Below are positions 39,522 through 63,628 of a stretch of 64,000 nucleotides of DNA, piece after piece. The stretch comes from Lachnoanaerobaculum sp. OBRC5-5. Lineage in GTDB: Bacteria > Bacillota > Clostridia > Lachnospirales > Lachnospiraceae. Within the stretch, counting starts at the first letter, position 1. Every line of letters starts with the position of its first letter. The notes beneath the pieces were generated by a model. It saw nothing but the letters and a program-made list of their open reading frames with translations, was not told the DNA's origin and searched no databases. The stretch is from NCBI RefSeq assembly GCF_000296385.1, contig NZ_JH815185.1, positions 1,320,684-1,384,683 of the forward strand, in the 5' to 3' direction. Both the position numbers and the translations under genes were made by a program.

Positions 39522-40712
39522 CTAAAATTTTCCTTCAAGAGGTTTCATCGCTCTTTCAAGTATACCGTTCATATAAGCTATTGATATACCGTAATTTGTC
39601 ATAGGTATGGTAGCTTCATTTGCATACTTCATCCTTGACTTCATCTGGTTTTCATTTAACATACAGGCACCGCAATGAATTATTATCTTATATACTGAAA
39701 GATCTTTTGGGAACTCTCCTCCACTTGAAAGTTCAAACTTCAACGCATCTTCATCCTGCAGGCCGGTAAATTTTCTGACCAGCCTCGGTATCTTTACACT
39801 TCCGATATCCTCGCATTGTCTGTGATGTGTACAGCCTTCACTTATAAGTACTTTATCTCCTTTTTTAAGTGTGTCTATAACTCTTGCGGCATTATAAAGA
39901 TTGTAAAGAGCGCCCTTATAGTTTGCAAATATTATTGAAAATGAGGTAAGAGGTATGTTTTGAGGTATCAATTCATCCACTTCCTTAAACACCTGTGAAT
40001 CACATACCACCAAGGCAATATCATTAAACTTTTTTAATGTCGCTTCTATCTCATTCACCTGAAGCACAACTGCGATACCATGTCTGTCAAGAATTTCCCT
40101 TATTACCTGCTGCTGCGGCAAAATAAGTCTGCCCTTCGGTGCCGATGAATCTATAGGTGTTACAAGCATTATAATATCACCTTCCTTCATCATATCACCG
40201 AGTATTGTCTTTTCTTTCTTTTCTTTGCCAAGAACCTCAGACATCATATCTTTTAGCTTATCTATATTGATATTATTTAATGCTGAAACATATATATCAA
40301 TCTTTTCATCTTTTCTTTCTTCATCTGCTATAGAGTCACATTTATTTCCTACAACAAGACATCTTTTTTCTTTTATCTTTTCTAAAAATTCAAGCTCATC
40401 ATCACTGAACTCACTACCTGCATCCACCACAAATAGTATGAGATCCGCCCTGTCTATATATTCCAGACTCTTTTCCACTCTTAAATTTCCAAGGCTGCTC
40501 TTATCGTCAAGTCCCGGTGTATCCACAAGTACCACCGGTCCGAATGGCAAAAGCTCCATACTCTTTTTTACAGGATCTGTTGTGGTACCGCTGATATCGG
40601 ATACTATTGCAATGTCCTGTGAGGTTATAGCATTTATCAAGCTTGATTTTCCAACATTACAGCGACCGAAAAGGCAAATAGTCGCTCTCTCTCCCATCGG
40701 TGTACTATTCAT
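39522..40712 (-). CDS. hydF: [FeFe]-hydrogenase maturation GTPase HydF
   Basis: 396 aa from ATG 40712, two bases after the hydG stop. N-terminal GTPase motifs: GRCNVGKSSLINA, DISGTTTDP, DTPG, GNKCD. The C-terminal cluster ligands follow the HydF pattern C-x-H ... H-C-x-x-C (GCTHHRQCED and IHCGACMLN). HydF is the scaffold on which HydE and HydG build the 2Fe subcluster before transfer to the hydrogenase. The structural hydrogenase gene itself is not in this window. Confidence 0.95.
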   Translation of the reverse strand: MNSTPMGERATICLFGRCNVGKSSLINAITSQDIAIVSDISGTTTDPVKKSMELLPFGPVVLVDTPGLDDKSSLGNLRVEKSLEYIDRADLILFVVDAGSEFSDDELEFLEKIKEKRCLVVGNKCDSIADEERKDEKIDIYVSALNNINIDKLKDMMSEVLGKEKKEKTILGDMMKEGDIIMLVTPIDSSAPKGRLILPQQQVIREILDRHGIAVVLQVNEIEATLKKFNDIALVVCDSQVFKEVDELIPQNIPLTSFSIIFANYKGALYNLYNAARVIDTLKKGDKVLISEGCTHHRQCEDIGSVKIPRLVRKFTGLQDEDALKFELSSGGEFPKDLSVYKIIIHCGACMLNENQMKSRMKYANEATIPMTNYGISIAYMNGILERAMKPLEGKF

Positions 40713-40713
40713 A

Positions 40714-42162
40714 TCAGAACCTGAAGTCCCTTGCATTTGTAGTTTCAATTTCATTTATATACTGAATCGCTCTTTCCTTCACCTTCGGATTGCTTACCTT
40801 TTCAATCTCCGATTTTATCATCTTCATTCCATGCTCTTTTGTCTGATCGGATGCATAATCGGTCATATATTCACTGAGTGTCATAAGAGCATTCGGATGA
40901 CAGCAGTTTATGATCTGTCCGCTCTTGCAAAGGCTCATAAATCTGTCACCTGTTCTGCCTTCTCTGTAGCAGGCGGTACAAAATGAAGGTATATGTCCCA
41001 TTCCCATAAGCCAGTCCACCACCTCATCCAAAGTTCTTTGATCTGATACATCAAACTGCTCCGAATCTGTAGGTCTGATTTCCTCAGTATATCCGCCGAC
41101 TGAAGTTCTTGAAGCACCGCTTATCTGTGATATTCCCACCTTCAAAGCTCTTTCTCTTACTTCCTGACTCTCTCTTGTGGAGATAATCATTCCGGTATAA
41201 GGAACCGCTATTCTTATACATGCAATAATTTTTTCAAATATATCATCATCAAGTCCGTTATCAAAAGTATCCGGATCTATATCATCGGCTCTTTTAATTC
41301 TCGGTACGCTTATAGTATGAGGTCCTACTCCGAATGTAGCTTCCAAATGTTCCCCATGCATCAAAAGTCCTGCAAACTCATATTTATATGACTCCAGTCC
41401 GAAAAGTACTCCAAGTCCTACGTCATCAATTCCGCCCTCCATAGCTCTGTCCATAGCCTCGGTATGATAGATATAGTTATGCTTAGGTCCTGTAGGATGA
41501 AGGCTCTCATAGGACTCTTTATTATAGGTCTCCTGGAAAAGTATATATGTTCCGATTCCGGCTTCATGAAGCTTTTTATAATTTTCCACCGTAGTGGCCG
41601 CAATATTTACATTTGCTCTTCTTATAGCACCGTTTTTATGCTTTATACTGTAGATAGTCTTTATAGATTCAAGTATATACTCAATAGGGCTGTTTATAGG
41701 ATCTTCTCCCGATTCTATGGCAAGTCTCTTATGTCCCATATCCTGAAGTGCAATTACCTCATTTTTTATTTCTTCCTGAGTAAGTTTTTTTCTGGCTATA
41801 TTCTTGTTCTTTGCATGATATGGACAGTATACACATCCGTTTACACAGTAGTTTGAAAGATAGAGGGGTGCAAACATTACTATTCTGTTTCCGTAGAAAG
41901 TCTGCTTTATCTCTCCTGCAAGAGCATAAATCTTTTCTATGATTTCCTTGTCCTCACAGGCAAGAAGTACTGATGCCTCTCTGTGAGTAAGCCCTTTGGC
42001 TATAATACCTTTCTCCGTTTTTTTCGGTCTTGCTTTTTCAAGATATTCTTCTATCAAAGGAATATTATTTTTATTTTCCTCGGCAAACTTAATTGTCTCC
42101 AATATTTCTTCATGGTTTATAAATTCTTCGGCATTTCTTGATTTTACATCGTATTTAAACAT
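40714..42162 (-). CDS. hydG: [FeFe]-hydrogenase maturase HydG (tyrosine lyase)
   Basis: 482 aa radical SAM enzyme of the ThiH-like family. The N-terminal cluster is CVNGCVYC (Cys106, Cys110, Cys113). The C-terminal second cluster is CTACYREGRTGDRFMSLC. It splits tyrosine into p-cresol, CO and cyanide for the H-cluster. It overlaps hydE by 19 bases. Confidence 0.96.
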   Translation of the reverse strand: MFKYDVKSRNAEEFINHEEILETIKFAEENKNNIPLIEEYLEKARPKKTEKGIIAKGLTHREASVLLACEDKEIIEKIYALAGEIKQTFYGNRIVMFAPLYLSNYCVNGCVYCPYHAKNKNIARKKLTQEEIKNEVIALQDMGHKRLAIESGEDPINSPIEYILESIKTIYSIKHKNGAIRRANVNIAATTVENYKKLHEAGIGTYILFQETYNKESYESLHPTGPKHNYIYHTEAMDRAMEGGIDDVGLGVLFGLESYKYEFAGLLMHGEHLEATFGVGPHTISVPRIKRADDIDPDTFDNGLDDDIFEKIIACIRIAVPYTGMIISTRESQEVRERALKVGISQISGASRTSVGGYTEEIRPTDSEQFDVSDQRTLDEVVDWLMGMGHIPSFCTACYREGRTGDRFMSLCKSGQIINCCHPNALMTLSEYMTDYASDQTKEHGMKMIKSEIEKVSNPKVKERAIQYINEIETTNARDFRF

Positions 42163-43268
42163 TTATAATCTCCTCTTACTTTTGCAACTCCGTAACCTAT
42201 ATTGTTGATTCTGTTGGTAATACATCCGATGCAGTGAGCGGCTTCATCTCCTGTACATACCTTTCCGTCATATAGTTCATATTTTTTTCTTGTTTTTAAC
42301 GGTGAAAGATTCGGCATCACCACATTTGCACCTGCCAGTATTCCCTTCTCTCTTCCCAGATTGTCCAATGTACTTAAAGAAGTGGTTGCAGGTATTAGCA
42401 TATTCGGTCTCATTATTCTAAGTATGGCTATCAAAAATAAAGTCATTTGAATACTGCCGCTTTTTTCGTCCTTAAATGCAGTATCATGATGCGGTATAAA
42501 AGGTCCTATACCGCACATCTGCGGTCCGAACTCTTCTATAAACTTTAAATCCTTTGCCAATGTGTAAGAACTTTGATACGGTGAACCCACCATAAATCCG
42601 CATCCTACCTGAAATCCGATATCTTTTAAAGCTTTCAGACAGTTCATTCTGTGTTCAAACGACATCTGCTTAGGGTGAAGTTTCTCATAATGTTCTTTGT
42701 CCGCAGTCTCATGTCTTAAAAGATATCTGTCCGCACCTGCGTCAAACATTTTCTGATAGTCTTCTTTCTCATATTCTCCCAAAGAAAGCGTAACGGCAAC
42801 GTCCTTATACTTTTCCTTGATTTTCTTTACAATACTACATATATAATCCGGTTCAAATTTTCCGTCTTCACCTCCCTGCATTACAAAGGTTCTATAACCG
42901 AGCCTATATCCTTCATCCGCACATTCAAGTATTTCTTCTTCTGTGAGCCTGTAGCGGTCACAGTTTCTGTTTGAATGTCTTATTCCACAATAATAACAGT
43001 CGTTTTTGCAAATATTGCTTATCTCTATGAGGCCTCTGAGATAAACATCTTTACCGTAGTTTTCATCGCCTATAATTCTTGCCTTTTTACTGATATAGTC
43101 AAATACCTCTTCATTCAAATTTTCTACAAGATATTTGTATTCTTCAAGGTCAAGGCTTCTTTCTTTTTCTAATCTTTCTATCAGAGCAATACTTTTATCG
43201 ATTTCCAAATATCTGTCATATTCGGTATTTTTAAAGTCCGTCTTATAAAGTGATATATCTTTAGCCAT
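42144..43268 (-). CDS. hydE: [FeFe]-hydrogenase maturase HydE
   Basis: Radical SAM enzyme of the BioB-like family, 374 aa from ATG 43268 (GGGTGA as possible ribosome site, overlapping the upstream gene by 8 bases; ATG 43283 has no site). Cluster motif ICKNDCYYCGIRHSN. EIGYRTFVMQGGED-like GG element and RHETADKEHYEKLHP are typical. It supplies the azadithiolate or iron-cysteine part of the 2Fe subcluster. Confidence 0.95.
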   Translation of the reverse strand: MAKDISLYKTDFKNTEYDRYLEIDKSIALIERLEKERSLDLEEYKYLVENLNEEVFDYISKKARIIGDENYGKDVYLRGLIEISNICKNDCYYCGIRHSNRNCDRYRLTEEEILECADEGYRLGYRTFVMQGGEDGKFEPDYICSIVKKIKEKYKDVAVTLSLGEYEKEDYQKMFDAGADRYLLRHETADKEHYEKLHPKQMSFEHRMNCLKALKDIGFQVGCGFMVGSPYQSSYTLAKDLKFIEEFGPQMCGIGPFIPHHDTAFKDEKSGSIQMTLFLIAILRIMRPNMLIPATTSLSTLDNLGREKGILAGANVVMPNLSPLKTRKKYELYDGKVCTGDEAAHCIGCITNRINNIGYGVAKVRGDYKCLNTM

Positions 43269-43521
43269 TGGCGTCACCCACATTTGAATAAGCGGTTTTA
43301 ATACTTACCCCTGGTAATTTTCCGATTTTACCTGACAAACTTGAAATCAGATTATTAGGTGCGTCGAGAGCAACCGACAACACACTTATACCTCTTTTGT
43401 GATATGGTATTCCCATTCTTCCGATAATATGATCTCCGTACTCGTGCAATAAATCATTGAGTTCTTTTACAGAATCCCTGTCCTCCACAATTATTGCCAT
43501 CAATGCTACTCTGTTATCCAT
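43261..43521 (-). CDS. TM1266-like iron-only hydrogenase system regulator
   Basis: 86 aa with an ACT-like/NikR-C-like fold (VALMAIIVEDRDSVKELNDLL, GIPYHKRGISVLSVALDAP). Proteins of this small family sit at the head of hydrogenase maturation operons and are thought to sense a ligand; DNA binding has not been proven to my knowledge. AAGGGG lies four bases before the ATG. The 30-base gap to the upstream terminator contains no promoter. Confidence 0.88.
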   Translation of the reverse strand: MDNRVALMAIIVEDRDSVKELNDLLHEYGDHIIGRMGIPYHKRGISVLSVALDAPNNLISSLSGKIGKLPGVSIKTAYSNVGDANG

Positions 43522-43553: not shown

Positions 43554-43686
43554 CAAAAAAACCCAAAGCCTCGGTGGCTTTGGGTACTCAAATAAATGTG
43601 CCTTCGCACAATCTTATACATTCACAAACCACCTTCCAAGTCAGATCCGGTATAAAGATCCTGTCTTCCCTGTTAGGAGCATCTGT
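43554..43686 (-). ncRNA. Candidate riboswitch/attenuator leader of the hyd operon
   Basis: A ~130-base leader begins about 43686 downstream of a clear promoter. Its 5' ACAGAT can pair with GTTTGT (43629-43624). GGATC/GATCT and GTGCGAAGGCAC form inner hairpins. An intrinsic terminator (ACCCAAAGCC/GGCTTTGGGT, 585-576 with 570-561, then seven T) ends it. The segment GGTGGTTT (43633-43626) is complementary to AAAGCCACC (43581-43573), the 5' half and loop of the terminator, over eight to nine positions with one G-U pair, which gives a competing antiterminator. That element overlaps the 3' strand of the closing stem. This is riboswitch-like logic. I could not match it to a known class by eye. Independent small RNA is the alternative. 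Confidence 0.6.
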
Positions 43687-43690
43687 ATAC

Positions 43691-43719
43691 AATGTAAATC
43701 CTTTTTAGTTGTTTGTCAA
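43691..43719 (-). promoter_or_regulatory. Promoter of the hyd leader
   Basis: TTGACA (43719-43714), 17-base spacer and TACATT (43696-43691) on the minus strand, placing the start near 43686-43684. It is the only good promoter for the regulator-hydE-hydG-hydF operon. Confidence 0.75.
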
Positions 43720-43776: not shown

Positions 43777-45033
43777 TTAATCATCAATCTCTGAGCTGCT
43801 TGATAATATCGCACCGCTTGTAGCATCGATATCATAGTCATATTCTACATTTCCGACCTTAAACTCAATCTCATAAACTCTTACGCCGTCATCCGTATCA
43901 AGCTCCACCTTGGTAAAGCTTGCACCGCTTATGCCCGCATGAGAAAGTGCTATCTGCTTAGCTCTGTCTGCCGAAATACCTGAAGCTGCAGCCTGTGTAG
44001 GTGCTGCCGTCTGTGGTTGTGTGGCGGCCTGAGTAGGTGCCGCCGGCTGTGTAGGTACTTCTGTCTGTGCCGCTGTTGTTGCTGCAGGTGCAGGCTGTGT
44101 TTCTGCCGGCTGCGCAGGTGCAGGCTGTGTCGCTGCCGGCTGTGCTGTTGTGGCGGCTGCAGTATTGTTCTCTACAGCAGCACTTGTAGCGATTCCTTTT
44201 TCTCTTGCATCCTCATCTATATCTTCAATAGCATCTGCAATATTTTCCCAGATACTGTCATCAGAATCATAATCAACTATATCTCTGATATCTATACCCT
44301 TTTGTACAACCAGACTTGCAATCTCACTTACTTTCATCTTTGCAAGCTCTTTTGCATCCAGCGAACTGTCTTTAGCGGCAAGATTCAGTACAAATACCGC
44401 CTTTCCTATAGATATATTATTTTCTGCGGCAAACTTTTTAGCATCTACAGTACTCTTTACAGTCTGATTTATAACTGTTGCCTGTACCGAATTTGTTGAA
44501 AGCGCGATATTTATATCGTTTAACACCTCGGCTTTAACTTTGTTTGCCTTATCTTCATTATCATTTCTTACGGTAACCAAAATACCTGTATTCTCATTTT
44601 GGATATAACCCTTTTGAACCATTGAACCTATAAGTGCATTAACTGCAACCTTAAGCTCCGTATTCTTAAGATTCATACCGTCAATTACAGCGGCTCCGTC
44701 CTGATTTGTAGACTGAACTTCCAACACCTTGTTCTTTTTGTTTGTTACAATCTCAACTCCCGGATTTACGTCAATATCCACATGTGAATCCGGAACATAA
44801 TTATTTCCGTAATATGGTACTCCTACAACTCCTACTGCAAACAGCACACAAGCGGCAGCCGCCACTCCTACAAATCCCTTACCGAATATATTAAATTTCT
44901 TCTTCATTCCTTTTTCAATCCTTTCTGCGTCGACAGAAACGATATTTTCAGAAATTCTTTTAAACATATCCTCGGGAATCATTCCCGATACAGCAGTGTC
45001 GAGCTTCTTCTCAATTTCTTCTCTTTTCATCAA
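43777..45033 (-). CDS. RsgI-like anti-sigma factor with PepSY domain
   Basis: 418 aa. An N-terminal cytoplasmic segment (~50 aa) precedes one membrane helix (GFVGVAAAACVLFAVGVVGV). Outside comes an RsgI-like domain (DSHVDIDVNPGVEIVTNKKN then KVLEVQSTNQDG, LNVAVNA-like region), a Pro/Ala/Gln/Thr-rich repeat linker (QPAPAQPAETQPAPA) and a C-terminal PepSY domain (DRAKQIALSHAGI ... YEIEFKVGNVEYDYDIDA). It should hold the ECF sigma factor encoded four bases upstream until an envelope signal arrives. The start overlaps the sigma stop, which supports partnership. Confidence 0.8.
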   Translation of the reverse strand: MMKREEIEKKLDTAVSGMIPEDMFKRISENIVSVDAERIEKGMKKKFNIFGKGFVGVAAAACVLFAVGVVGVPYYGNNYVPDSHVDIDVNPGVEIVTNKKNKVLEVQSTNQDGAAVIDGMNLKNTELKVAVNALIGSMVQKGYIQNENTGILVTVRNDNEDKANKVKAEVLNDINIALSTNSVQATVINQTVKSTVDAKKFAAENNISIGKAVFVLNLAAKDSSLDAKELAKMKVSEIASLVVQKGIDIRDIVDYDSDDSIWENIADAIEDIDEDAREKGIATSAAVENNTAAATTAQPAATQPAPAQPAETQPAPAATTAAQTEVPTQPAAPTQAATQPQTAAPTQAAASGISADRAKQIALSHAGISGASFTKVELDTDDGVRVYEIEFKVGNVEYDYDIDATSGAILSSSSEIDD

Positions 45034-45602
45034 AAGCCCTCCTCTTCCAAGTATTTCTGCATCTTCCTGACAGTCCTGTTGTACTTTGAAAGTACGGTAT
45101 TTATGGACATATCAAGTAATTCCGCTATTTCACGATTCTTAAGGCCTGCCACCGCATGTAGTAAAAGTATCGTTCTTTCATTTTCGTCCAACTTATTTAT
45201 AGTTGTTTTAAGAATAATACGCTCACTGAGATCTTCCACAAAGGAAAAATCCTGTTCCGGCAAATCGTTATCATCTTCTAAACTACCCTCTTTTTTTCCG
45301 TCACGAATCTTCATAAGTGCAAAATTTCTTGCTATCGTAAAGATCCATGCCATAGGTTTATCATATGAGGTGTAATCTGCTGCCTTTTGATAGATTTTCA
45401 AAAAAGTATCCTGCAAAATATCCTCTGCATCATGAGTATTTTTTGTTATTGAAAGGGCAAAGGCATATACACTTTTATGAGTTTTTTCATATAAAGTATG
45501 TAAAGCCTCCATACTTCCCTTTGCGATATCTTTTATAAGTTTATCATCCACCGTCGACGAAGCTTTTGATCCCTCCTCCAAGACCGCCACAAAATTAAGC
45601 AT
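45030..45602 (-). CDS. ECF-family RNA polymerase sigma factor
   Basis: 190 aa with region 2 (LHTLYEKTHKSVYAFALSIT, DAEDILQDTFLKIYQ, WIFTIARNFAL) and region 4 (ERTILLLHAVAGLKNREIAE then LLDMSINTVLSKYNRTVRKM). There is no region 3 or 1.1, as expected for ECF. It should direct transcription of an envelope-related regulon in response to its membrane partner. Its own regulon cannot be read from here. Confidence 0.92.
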   Translation of the reverse strand: MLNFVAVLEEGSKASSTVDDKLIKDIAKGSMEALHTLYEKTHKSVYAFALSITKNTHDAEDILQDTFLKIYQKAADYTSYDKPMAWIFTIARNFALMKIRDGKKEGSLEDDNDLPEQDFSFVEDLSERIILKTTINKLDENERTILLLHAVAGLKNREIAELLDMSINTVLSKYNRTVRKMQKYLEEEGF

Positions 45603-63408: not shown

Positions 63409-63628
63409 AAAAAAAGCCGCCTCCTTTTCAATCTTTATAAAAGAAATTGACAAGTGGTGACTGTACACTCTTCCGTGCGTGTCATAGTGACTAACCCACG
63501 AAAATACTCAATATGAGATGCTGTTTGTACAGTGACTTGTCGCCAGTTTTTGCAACATGACCTTCGCTCCACATAAAACCCGTAAACGGCAACCTATGCT
63601 TCTTAGCTATCAATGTCACAGCCATACT
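63409..63628 (-). other. Untranslated leader of the S10 operon
   Basis: About 215 bases between promoter and rpsJ. Several self-complementary segments are present (GTGACTGTACA with TGTACAGTCAC-like repeats at about 63458-63472 and 63516-63532; ATACTCAATATGAG). No gene. It may hold a regulatory structure for ribosomal protein control, but I cannot define it by eye. Confidence 0.45.

Follow-up and report, generated by a model that had tools for sequence, protein, structure and literature searches.

The [FeFe]-hydrogenase maturation operon of Lachnoanaerobaculum sp. OBRC5-5 is preceded by a leader whose RNA appears to end in a terminator before the first gene, which raises the question of whether this RNA is a sensor and, if so, of what. 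The locus was analysed within a stretch of 64,000 nucleotides, referred to here as the window. A riboswitch is expected to combine a conserved structured domain that covaries across species, an expression platform with mutually exclusive folds and a consistent association with the genes of one pathway. Our comparison of related genomes suggests that the leader is probably a cis-acting RNA sensor, a new candidate riboswitch class that represses hydrogenase maturation.

The leader and its operon

An initial annotation of the locus described a promoter, an RNA of about 130 bases ending in a strong terminator shortly before the TM1266-like gene, and no second promoter, and all of these features were recovered (Table 1). 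The TTGACA/TACATT pair has a 17-nt spacer and 10 of 12 consensus bases. The terminator consists of a 10-bp stem with a 5-nt loop followed by a T-run that ends 33 nt before the TM1266 ATG, and the promoter scan returned no site between the terminator and that ATG. Taken alone, promoter and terminator scans are weak evidence; over 8 kb, promoter-like sites numbered 32 (shuffles, 26.5 +/- 5.1) and terminator-like sites 6 (shuffles, 4.3 +/- 2.0). The 137-nt leader RNA is more stable than expected (z = -3.3, with 0/200 shuffles as stable), and the leader minus the terminator is unremarkable, with a z of only -1.4 and 16/200 shuffles equally stable. The TM1266, HydE, HydG and HydF proteins of the window each score above the NCBIfam cut-off.

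Table 1. Positions of the leader elements and operon genes in the window.
Feature	Position	Strand	Remark
-35 box TTGACA	43714..43719	-	sequence and promoter scan; invariant in 6/6 genus genomes
-10 box TACATT	43691..43696	-	promoter scan; TAATCT in two genus species
Outer stem (P1), ACAGAT 43686-43681 with GTTTGT 43629-43624	43624..43686	-	conserved in genus only
Core block CTAA (consensus CTRA)	43673..43676	-	
P2 5' strand CAGG, partner 43637-43640	43669..43672	-	covaries
Core block GAA (consensus RAA)	43666..43668	-	its final A is paired to the U of UGA
P3, 43666-43664 with 43645-43643, variable loop 43663-43646	43643..43666	-	
Core block TGA	43641..43643	-	
P2 3' strand CTTG	43637..43640	-	
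Core block GAAGG (consensus RAAGG), switching strand	43632..43636	-	
GGTGGTTT, antiterminator 5' half	43626..43633	-	
Small linker hairpin GTGC/GCAC	43597..43610	-	
AAGCCACC, antiterminator 3' half	43573..43580	-	inside terminator 5' arm and loop
Intrinsic terminator hairpin	43561..43585	-	then T-run to 43555
TM1266-family gene, operon gene 1	43261..43521	-	TIGR03959 109 bits, PF21699; relative of PDB 2nzc
hydE	42144..43268	-	TIGR03956 556 bits
hydG	40714..42162	-	TIGR03955 908 bits
hydF	39522..40754	-	TIGR03918 517 bits

Upstream of the leader, positions 43777-45602 (minus strand) hold an RsgI-like anti-sigma gene (PepSY domain) and an ECF sigma factor. The C-terminus of the RsgI-like protein precedes the leader in 5/6 genomes of the genus, and another protein does so at the sixth locus (L046). 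Elsewhere in the window, an S10-Clostridia ribosomal protein leader (63537-63612, minus strand) is the sole match at Rfam gathering level.

Conservation within the genus

The promoter, the ~130-nt leader, the core, the terminator and the GGTGGTTT/AAGCCACC pairing are kept in all six genomes of the genus Lachnoanaerobaculum, and at L046 (genome G299) promoter, leader and terminator are retained behind a different upstream gene. The six leaders share invariant blocks around one loop of varying length. The terminator loop contains the bases ACC, which are required solely for pairing in the antiterminator. These are invariant in 6/6 leaders, and the remaining two positions of the loop are variable or missing. 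The proposed helices are paired in 197 of 198 cells, the sole exception lying in the terminator. Because these six near relatives contain no double-sided covariation, the genus alone proves little on structure.

With own-genus matches set aside, BLAST beyond the genus found short matching stretches in 6/299 genomes (E<=0.01) and 2/397 genomes (E<=0.001). Seven of these eight matches look coding by eye; the eighth (L007) is intergenic and has only 27 bases in common. That stretch, CTCCTAACAGGGCAGACAGGAT at 36-62, is partly core-like and sits at a contig edge before a gene that by eye is cyclodeaminase-like; it is probably a chance match. A second BLAST match in the own genome (L002) is antisense within a coding gene. 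Model R1, built from the genus leaders only, was run on 397 genomes and gave eight matches beyond the genus, which we read as chance: the best E value was 0.024, in one genome, and none lay at the TM1266 locus of a matched genome for which one was listed. A contig scan for the genus-type strand, which possibly did not include the own genome, returned four records, all from this genus or its oral relative.

A core motif shared by other genera

The core that recurs outside the genus has the order CURA-P2-RAA-P3-loop-P3'-UGA-P2'-RAAGG and spans roughly 45-60 nt. Genomes were searched as a family set (Lachnospiraceae) and a class set (Clostridia), labels that follow from the placement of Lachnoanaerobaculum in these groups. 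TM1266 was found in 152/299 family genomes, and loci from 149 of them were used (147 from other genera and 2 from the genus), leaving aside three genomes beyond the matches listed, any second match in the same genome, and one contig piece that was a duplicate (G135:C33). As an earlier pattern scan had demanded P2 pairing, the scan was repeated without that requirement, with a pattern that fixes the unpaired blocks only (CTRA N4 RAA, 4 to ~25 nt, TRA N4 RAAG, with two loose bases). This P2-free pattern matched 22/147 other-genus loci, 6/6 genus leaders and 0/153 reverse complements, against a background of 0.16 matches per set in 200 dinucleotide shuffles. The 4-mers left free at P2 can form all four pairs in 23 of the 28 matches and three of four in another 4, with combinations such as TTAC/GTAA, CACC/GGTG, CCCG/CGGG and TCTG/CAGA besides the CAGG/CTTG of the window. 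One locus (L020) fits the pattern with 1/4 P2 pairs and is probably a chance match.

At 40/147 other-genus loci, the covariance model R2 detected a sense-strand copy of the element 5' of TM1266 (E<=0.05), including 17 of its own training sequences (new matches, 23/130); at the other 107 loci, no upstream match reached this threshold. Over 52 aligned matches, 95.7% of the pair cells are paired, compared with 69.2% in shuffled and 26-57% in slid controls, and 123 cells are altered on both sides, compared with 34.7 in shuffled ones. Since this alignment is fitted to the model, the counts lean to the model, and the P2-free pattern serves as the independent check. Covariation is found in both P2 and P3; in the alignment of the 52 matches (A9), the pair A22-U78 changes to G-C five times.

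In the same alignment, C11-G88 and U12-A87 close the core, with G/A13 and A14 opposite A86 and R85; past P2, R20 and A21 lie opposite A80 and G79, and P3 starts with A22-U78. Two purine mismatch pairs may thus flank the 4-bp P2 helix on either side. Core bases are near-invariant across genera, and loops and terminators vary. A -10-like match (5/6 bases) precedes the core at 24/40 loci (29% in shuffles), a tendency only. The ACAGAT/GTTTGT stem that had been proposed to close the RNA fared less evenly: it is invariant across the genus, and an outer stem is visible in some relatives, but a general counterpart is not clear, with -4.8 kcal/mol for own and -4.4 kcal/mol for swapped partners and 141/2000 swaps equally good, which is not significant. 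As judged from sequence comparison, P2 and P3 with their flanking blocks appear to form a conserved structured domain with cross-species covariation.

Genes next to the element

Model R3 was applied to 250 family genomes, 55 of which contained a match at E<=0.1. The 46 matches at E<=0.001 lie at TM1266 (29, assigned by the coordinates of TM1266 matches), hydE (7), hydG (1), ABC transporter genes (8) and within a coding sequence (1). The eight transporter cases encode an SsuA/NMT1-like binding protein and/or an SsuC-like permease. Because TM1266 leaders made up most of the training data of R2 and R3, the 29 TM1266 cases are mostly not independent; the independent ones are the 16 family matches at hydE, ABC transporter and hydG genes together with the class matches, except for the hydG sites L033 and L035:2820, which were in the R3 training set. 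Weaker family matches (E 0.001-0.1, n=15) are unreliable, as eight are coding, repeat or unrelated sequences (L226, L227 three times, L228, L229, L231, L239). Four of the others are linked to hydrogenase genes (G099, G090, G051, G021), two lie just 3' of TM1266 (G134, G226) and one remains (G020). Further false positives were L224, L265 (coding), L269 (repeat) and L276 (coding).

In the class set, 32/177 genomes have a match at E<=0.02, and 31 of these are not the own genome. Among the 31, 27 have the element at TM1266 (15), hydG (9), hydE (1), hydF (1) or an aspartase gene followed by hydF (1); the remainder comprises one SsuABC-like transporter, one operon with a NuoE/HoxE-like first gene and two coding or repeat sequences. 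The NuoE/HoxE-like operon is a doubtful target, its third gene scoring as a glutamate-synthase-like oxidoreductase and not as a hydrogenase. At phylum level, 4/129 genomes match, including the own: one at hydE, one with two copies and one in a coding sequence. Such few matches indicate that the element is mainly one of the class. The genome with two copies (G623; L275, L277) carries them ~430 bases apart, one preceding TM1266 and the other a FecCD-type permease. All 17 of the 17 HydE, HydG and HydF targets scanned were above their cut-offs, and other assignments were taken from sequence or coordinates.

The confident matches thus lie mainly at TM1266, hydE, hydG and hydF, with most of the rest at ABC transporters, a distribution that suggests a consistent association with the genes of one pathway and fits the hydrogenase-linked signal suggested at the outset. 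Two clusters (L225, L234) combine an ABC transporter of the SsuA/SsuC-like kind with TM1266, and L225 also contains hydE and hydG. Only one confident copy of the element occurs in the window genome; its homologue of the SsuA-like binding protein (L278, G000:C1:1811472-1812494, 47% identity), which is followed by a permease and an ATPase, has no detectable element.

Several neighbourhoods deserve mention in their own right. At L221, the element is followed by an SsuA/NMT1-like protein, a radical SAM enzyme that is HydE-related at a sub-cut-off score, and a nitrilase-like gene. At L272 (G487), it precedes aspartate ammonia-lyase, with hydF directly after; in Pelobacter carbinolicus, an aspartate ammonia-lyase gene sits between hydG and hydF, according to a passage of PMC3543383. 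At L134 and L174, a gene for the large bacterial SRP RNA is found close to the TM1266 leader, on the same strand as TM1266.

Competition between antiterminator and terminator

The initial annotation had also noted a leader segment complementary to the terminator and proposed two exclusive folds. In the window, GGTGGTTT and AAGCCACC can form eight pairs, one of them U-G. We examined this relation in 67 elements (48 TM1266 leaders and 19 others) with a terminator script, which found a terminator within 230 nt in 49 and none in 18; this set excluded L033, L035:2820, L047, L177, L211, L212, L219 and a further eight loci from the class. The conserved 3' strand of the core pairs with the 5' arm and loop of its own terminator at a mean of -10.7 kcal/mol, compared with -7.5 kcal/mol for swapped terminators, and 0/2000 swaps were as good. 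The own terminator ranks within the best tenth for 24/49 elements, and pairings of -3.2 kcal/mol or weaker occur in 4/49, including one mis-picked terminator (L085) that was kept in these statistics. Clear cases are AAGATGCG/CGCATCTT (L024), CAAAAGCG/CGCTTTTG (L172), GGCACAAA/TTTGTGCC (L147), GAAAGAC/GTCTTTC (L095) and AAAGGGC/GCCCTTT (L157). These comparisons strongly support the same predicted terminator/antiterminator logic, with compensating changes, in many genera.

Folding of the growing window RNA is consistent with such a competition. At lengths of 118 and 120 nt, the RNA folds best with the antiterminator, which is favoured by 3.6 and 4.8 kcal/mol over a fold that preserves the core; from nt 126 onwards, the fold with core and terminator is preferred, and at full length it reaches -42.4 kcal/mol compared with -34.3 kcal/mol with the antiterminator forced, in energies that take in neither kinetics nor ligand. 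A second layout points to translation. At nine loci (L033, L035, L220, L243, L245, L248, L249, L254, L261), the Shine-Dalgarno sequence of hydG coincides with the 3' strand or lies directly next to it, and at two others (L223, L234) the same holds for that of a transporter gene. Sequence and energy together thus argue for an expression platform with mutually exclusive folds.

Comparison with Rfam and the literature

Rfam 15 contains no family that matches the window element at gathering score, in agreement with the earlier impression that no known aptamer is present. At E<=10, the window gave weak matches on the opposite strand only, far under gathering scores, and no independent small RNA was matched on the leader strand. 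A search of 40 further loci, 29 of them carrying an element match, likewise placed no gathering-level match on the element. When 15 loci were searched at E<=1, the only family to overlap the element was U6 (L174), at 19.7 bits against a gathering score of 44, which is chance level.

In the passages retrieved from the open-access literature searched, several of which came from surveys of structured RNAs, there was no account of the element. It is absent from the passages of PMC11109978, PMC8632094, PMC9481103, PMC8040213, PMC2864571, PMC6429828, PMC7266159, PMC12456013, PMC5317091, PMC3543383 and PMC6239172. One of these mentions a Bacteroidetes RNA, HMP2_1881, near radical SAM genes (PMC8040213). 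Passages on RNA control of [FeFe]-hydrogenase cofactor assembly were likewise not found in this literature. With no Rfam match and no report found, we regard the element as a new class within a familiar type of device, a candidate riboswitch.

Mechanism and rival explanations

The sequences compared reveal a covarying core, its association with particular genes and a pairing that competes with the terminator, and the sensor may well be the RNA itself. In the mechanism that we propose, the core of 45-60 nt would fold at once upon transcription. A signal that stabilises it would lock the 3' strand RAAGGNG, leaving the terminator free to form and to end transcription ahead of TM1266-hydEGF. In the absence of the signal, the 3' strand would pair with the 5' arm of the terminator (GGUGGUUU with AAGCCACC in the window) and the operon would be read. 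In the hydG layout, locking of the Shine-Dalgarno strand would block translation. As locking of the core would silence the genes in both layouts, an OFF switch is predicted, which would amount to feedback repression of H-cluster assembly and of the linked transporters.

Alternatively, a protein could bind the core, lock it and so autoregulate the operon, the most plausible one being TM1266, the small putative regulator encoded by the first gene; the leader would then be a protein-controlled attenuator and not a riboswitch. As a sensor, TM1266 is a candidate only, and we consider this explanation unlikely. It would account for the position of the element directly upstream of TM1266 in 29/46 family matches (E<=0.001, with models trained on TM1266 leaders) and 15/31 class matches, for the presence of TM1266 in 28/31 class genomes with an element match, and for the NCBIfam title of the family, putative regulator of iron-only hydrogenase system. 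However, Pfam assigns TM1266 no RNA-binding domain, and the core is rich in near-invariant internal-loop bases, which would be expected of a pocket for a small molecule but can resemble a protein site as well. Moreover, G413, a genome that is 97% complete, has the core before hydG-hydF and no TM1266 match, which is weak evidence against TM1266 as sensor because the gene could sit in a gap and this is one genome; the other two class genomes without TM1266 are G529 (61% complete) and one whose match is coding.

Two further explanations dispense with a sensing core. A constitutive attenuator would hold the proportion of terminated and read-through transcripts constant, or serve as the source of a small RNA, and the leader's own promoter and terminator would indeed release an RNA of ~125-130 nt. 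A conserved core would seem superfluous for fixed attenuation, yet the core is near-invariant across genera while loops and terminators vary, and it also occurs at hydG starts with its 3' strand at or next to the Shine-Dalgarno sequence. Given these features and the lack of an Rfam small-RNA match on the leader strand, we regard constitutive attenuation as highly improbable. Control of the terminator by translation of a leader peptide is scarcely credible: in the window, a short ORF starting ATGTATAAG does follow GAAGGTGG, which by eye lies 7 nt before the ATG, but this ATG is ACG in two of the six genus species (L047, L048). With the start codon lost there, the short ORF is not conserved and leader-peptide attenuation was rejected.

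What the element might sense

For the preferred reading, an RNA sensor that switches the operon off, the ligand would presumably be tied to H-cluster assembly, such as a precursor (iron or iron-CO/CN) or some other pathway metabolite. Vitamin and cofactor riboswitches place biosynthesis and uptake genes under one element, and the same arrangement under an OFF-type element here hints at an H-cluster product or precursor. The FecCD transporter, seen in two cases (directly behind the element at L277 and downstream of TM1266 at L255), leans thinly towards iron. A more specific proposal, that the core is an aptamer directly sensing an [FeFe]-hydrogenase cofactor intermediate, be it an iron-carbonyl/cyanide species, free iron or an iron chelate, is tentative, and we hold it to be possible rather than probable.

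[FeFe]-hydrogenases are the source of much gut and fermenter hydrogen. If the aptamer proposal is true, H-cluster synthesis, uptake of iron or precursor (FecCD- and SsuC-type transporters) and HydG translation would be joined in one feedback loop in Clostridia. The element marks maturation genes and certain ABC transporters and would thereby offer a ready assay for the signal. It is also a guide to genes of obscure role, including TM1266, the SsuA/NMT1-like transporter and the HydE-like radical SAM enzyme.

Comparison with known systems

SAM-I and TPP riboswitches are of the transcription-attenuating OFF type. The parallels, drawn in general terms, are threefold: the 3' strand of the aptamer likewise acts as an antiterminator that rivals an intrinsic terminator, one aptamer class is likewise able to control translation elsewhere, and biosynthesis and transporter genes likewise stand under one element. 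Unlike them, the present core falls below Rfam 15 gathering scores and its targets are hydrogenase maturation genes. In protein-controlled attenuators such as the RAT sites of BglG/SacY and PyrR leaders, a leader hairpin likewise overlaps terminator and antiterminator; none of the four proteins of the operon, however, belongs to those families. The Rfam family of the tungsten/molybdenum cofactor riboswitch gave no match to the element, and the present core is distinguished by its ~45-60 nt and two short helices. According to a passage of PMC9481103, that riboswitch, likewise a metal-cofactor element in kind, is reported upstream of hydrogenase genes, among others.
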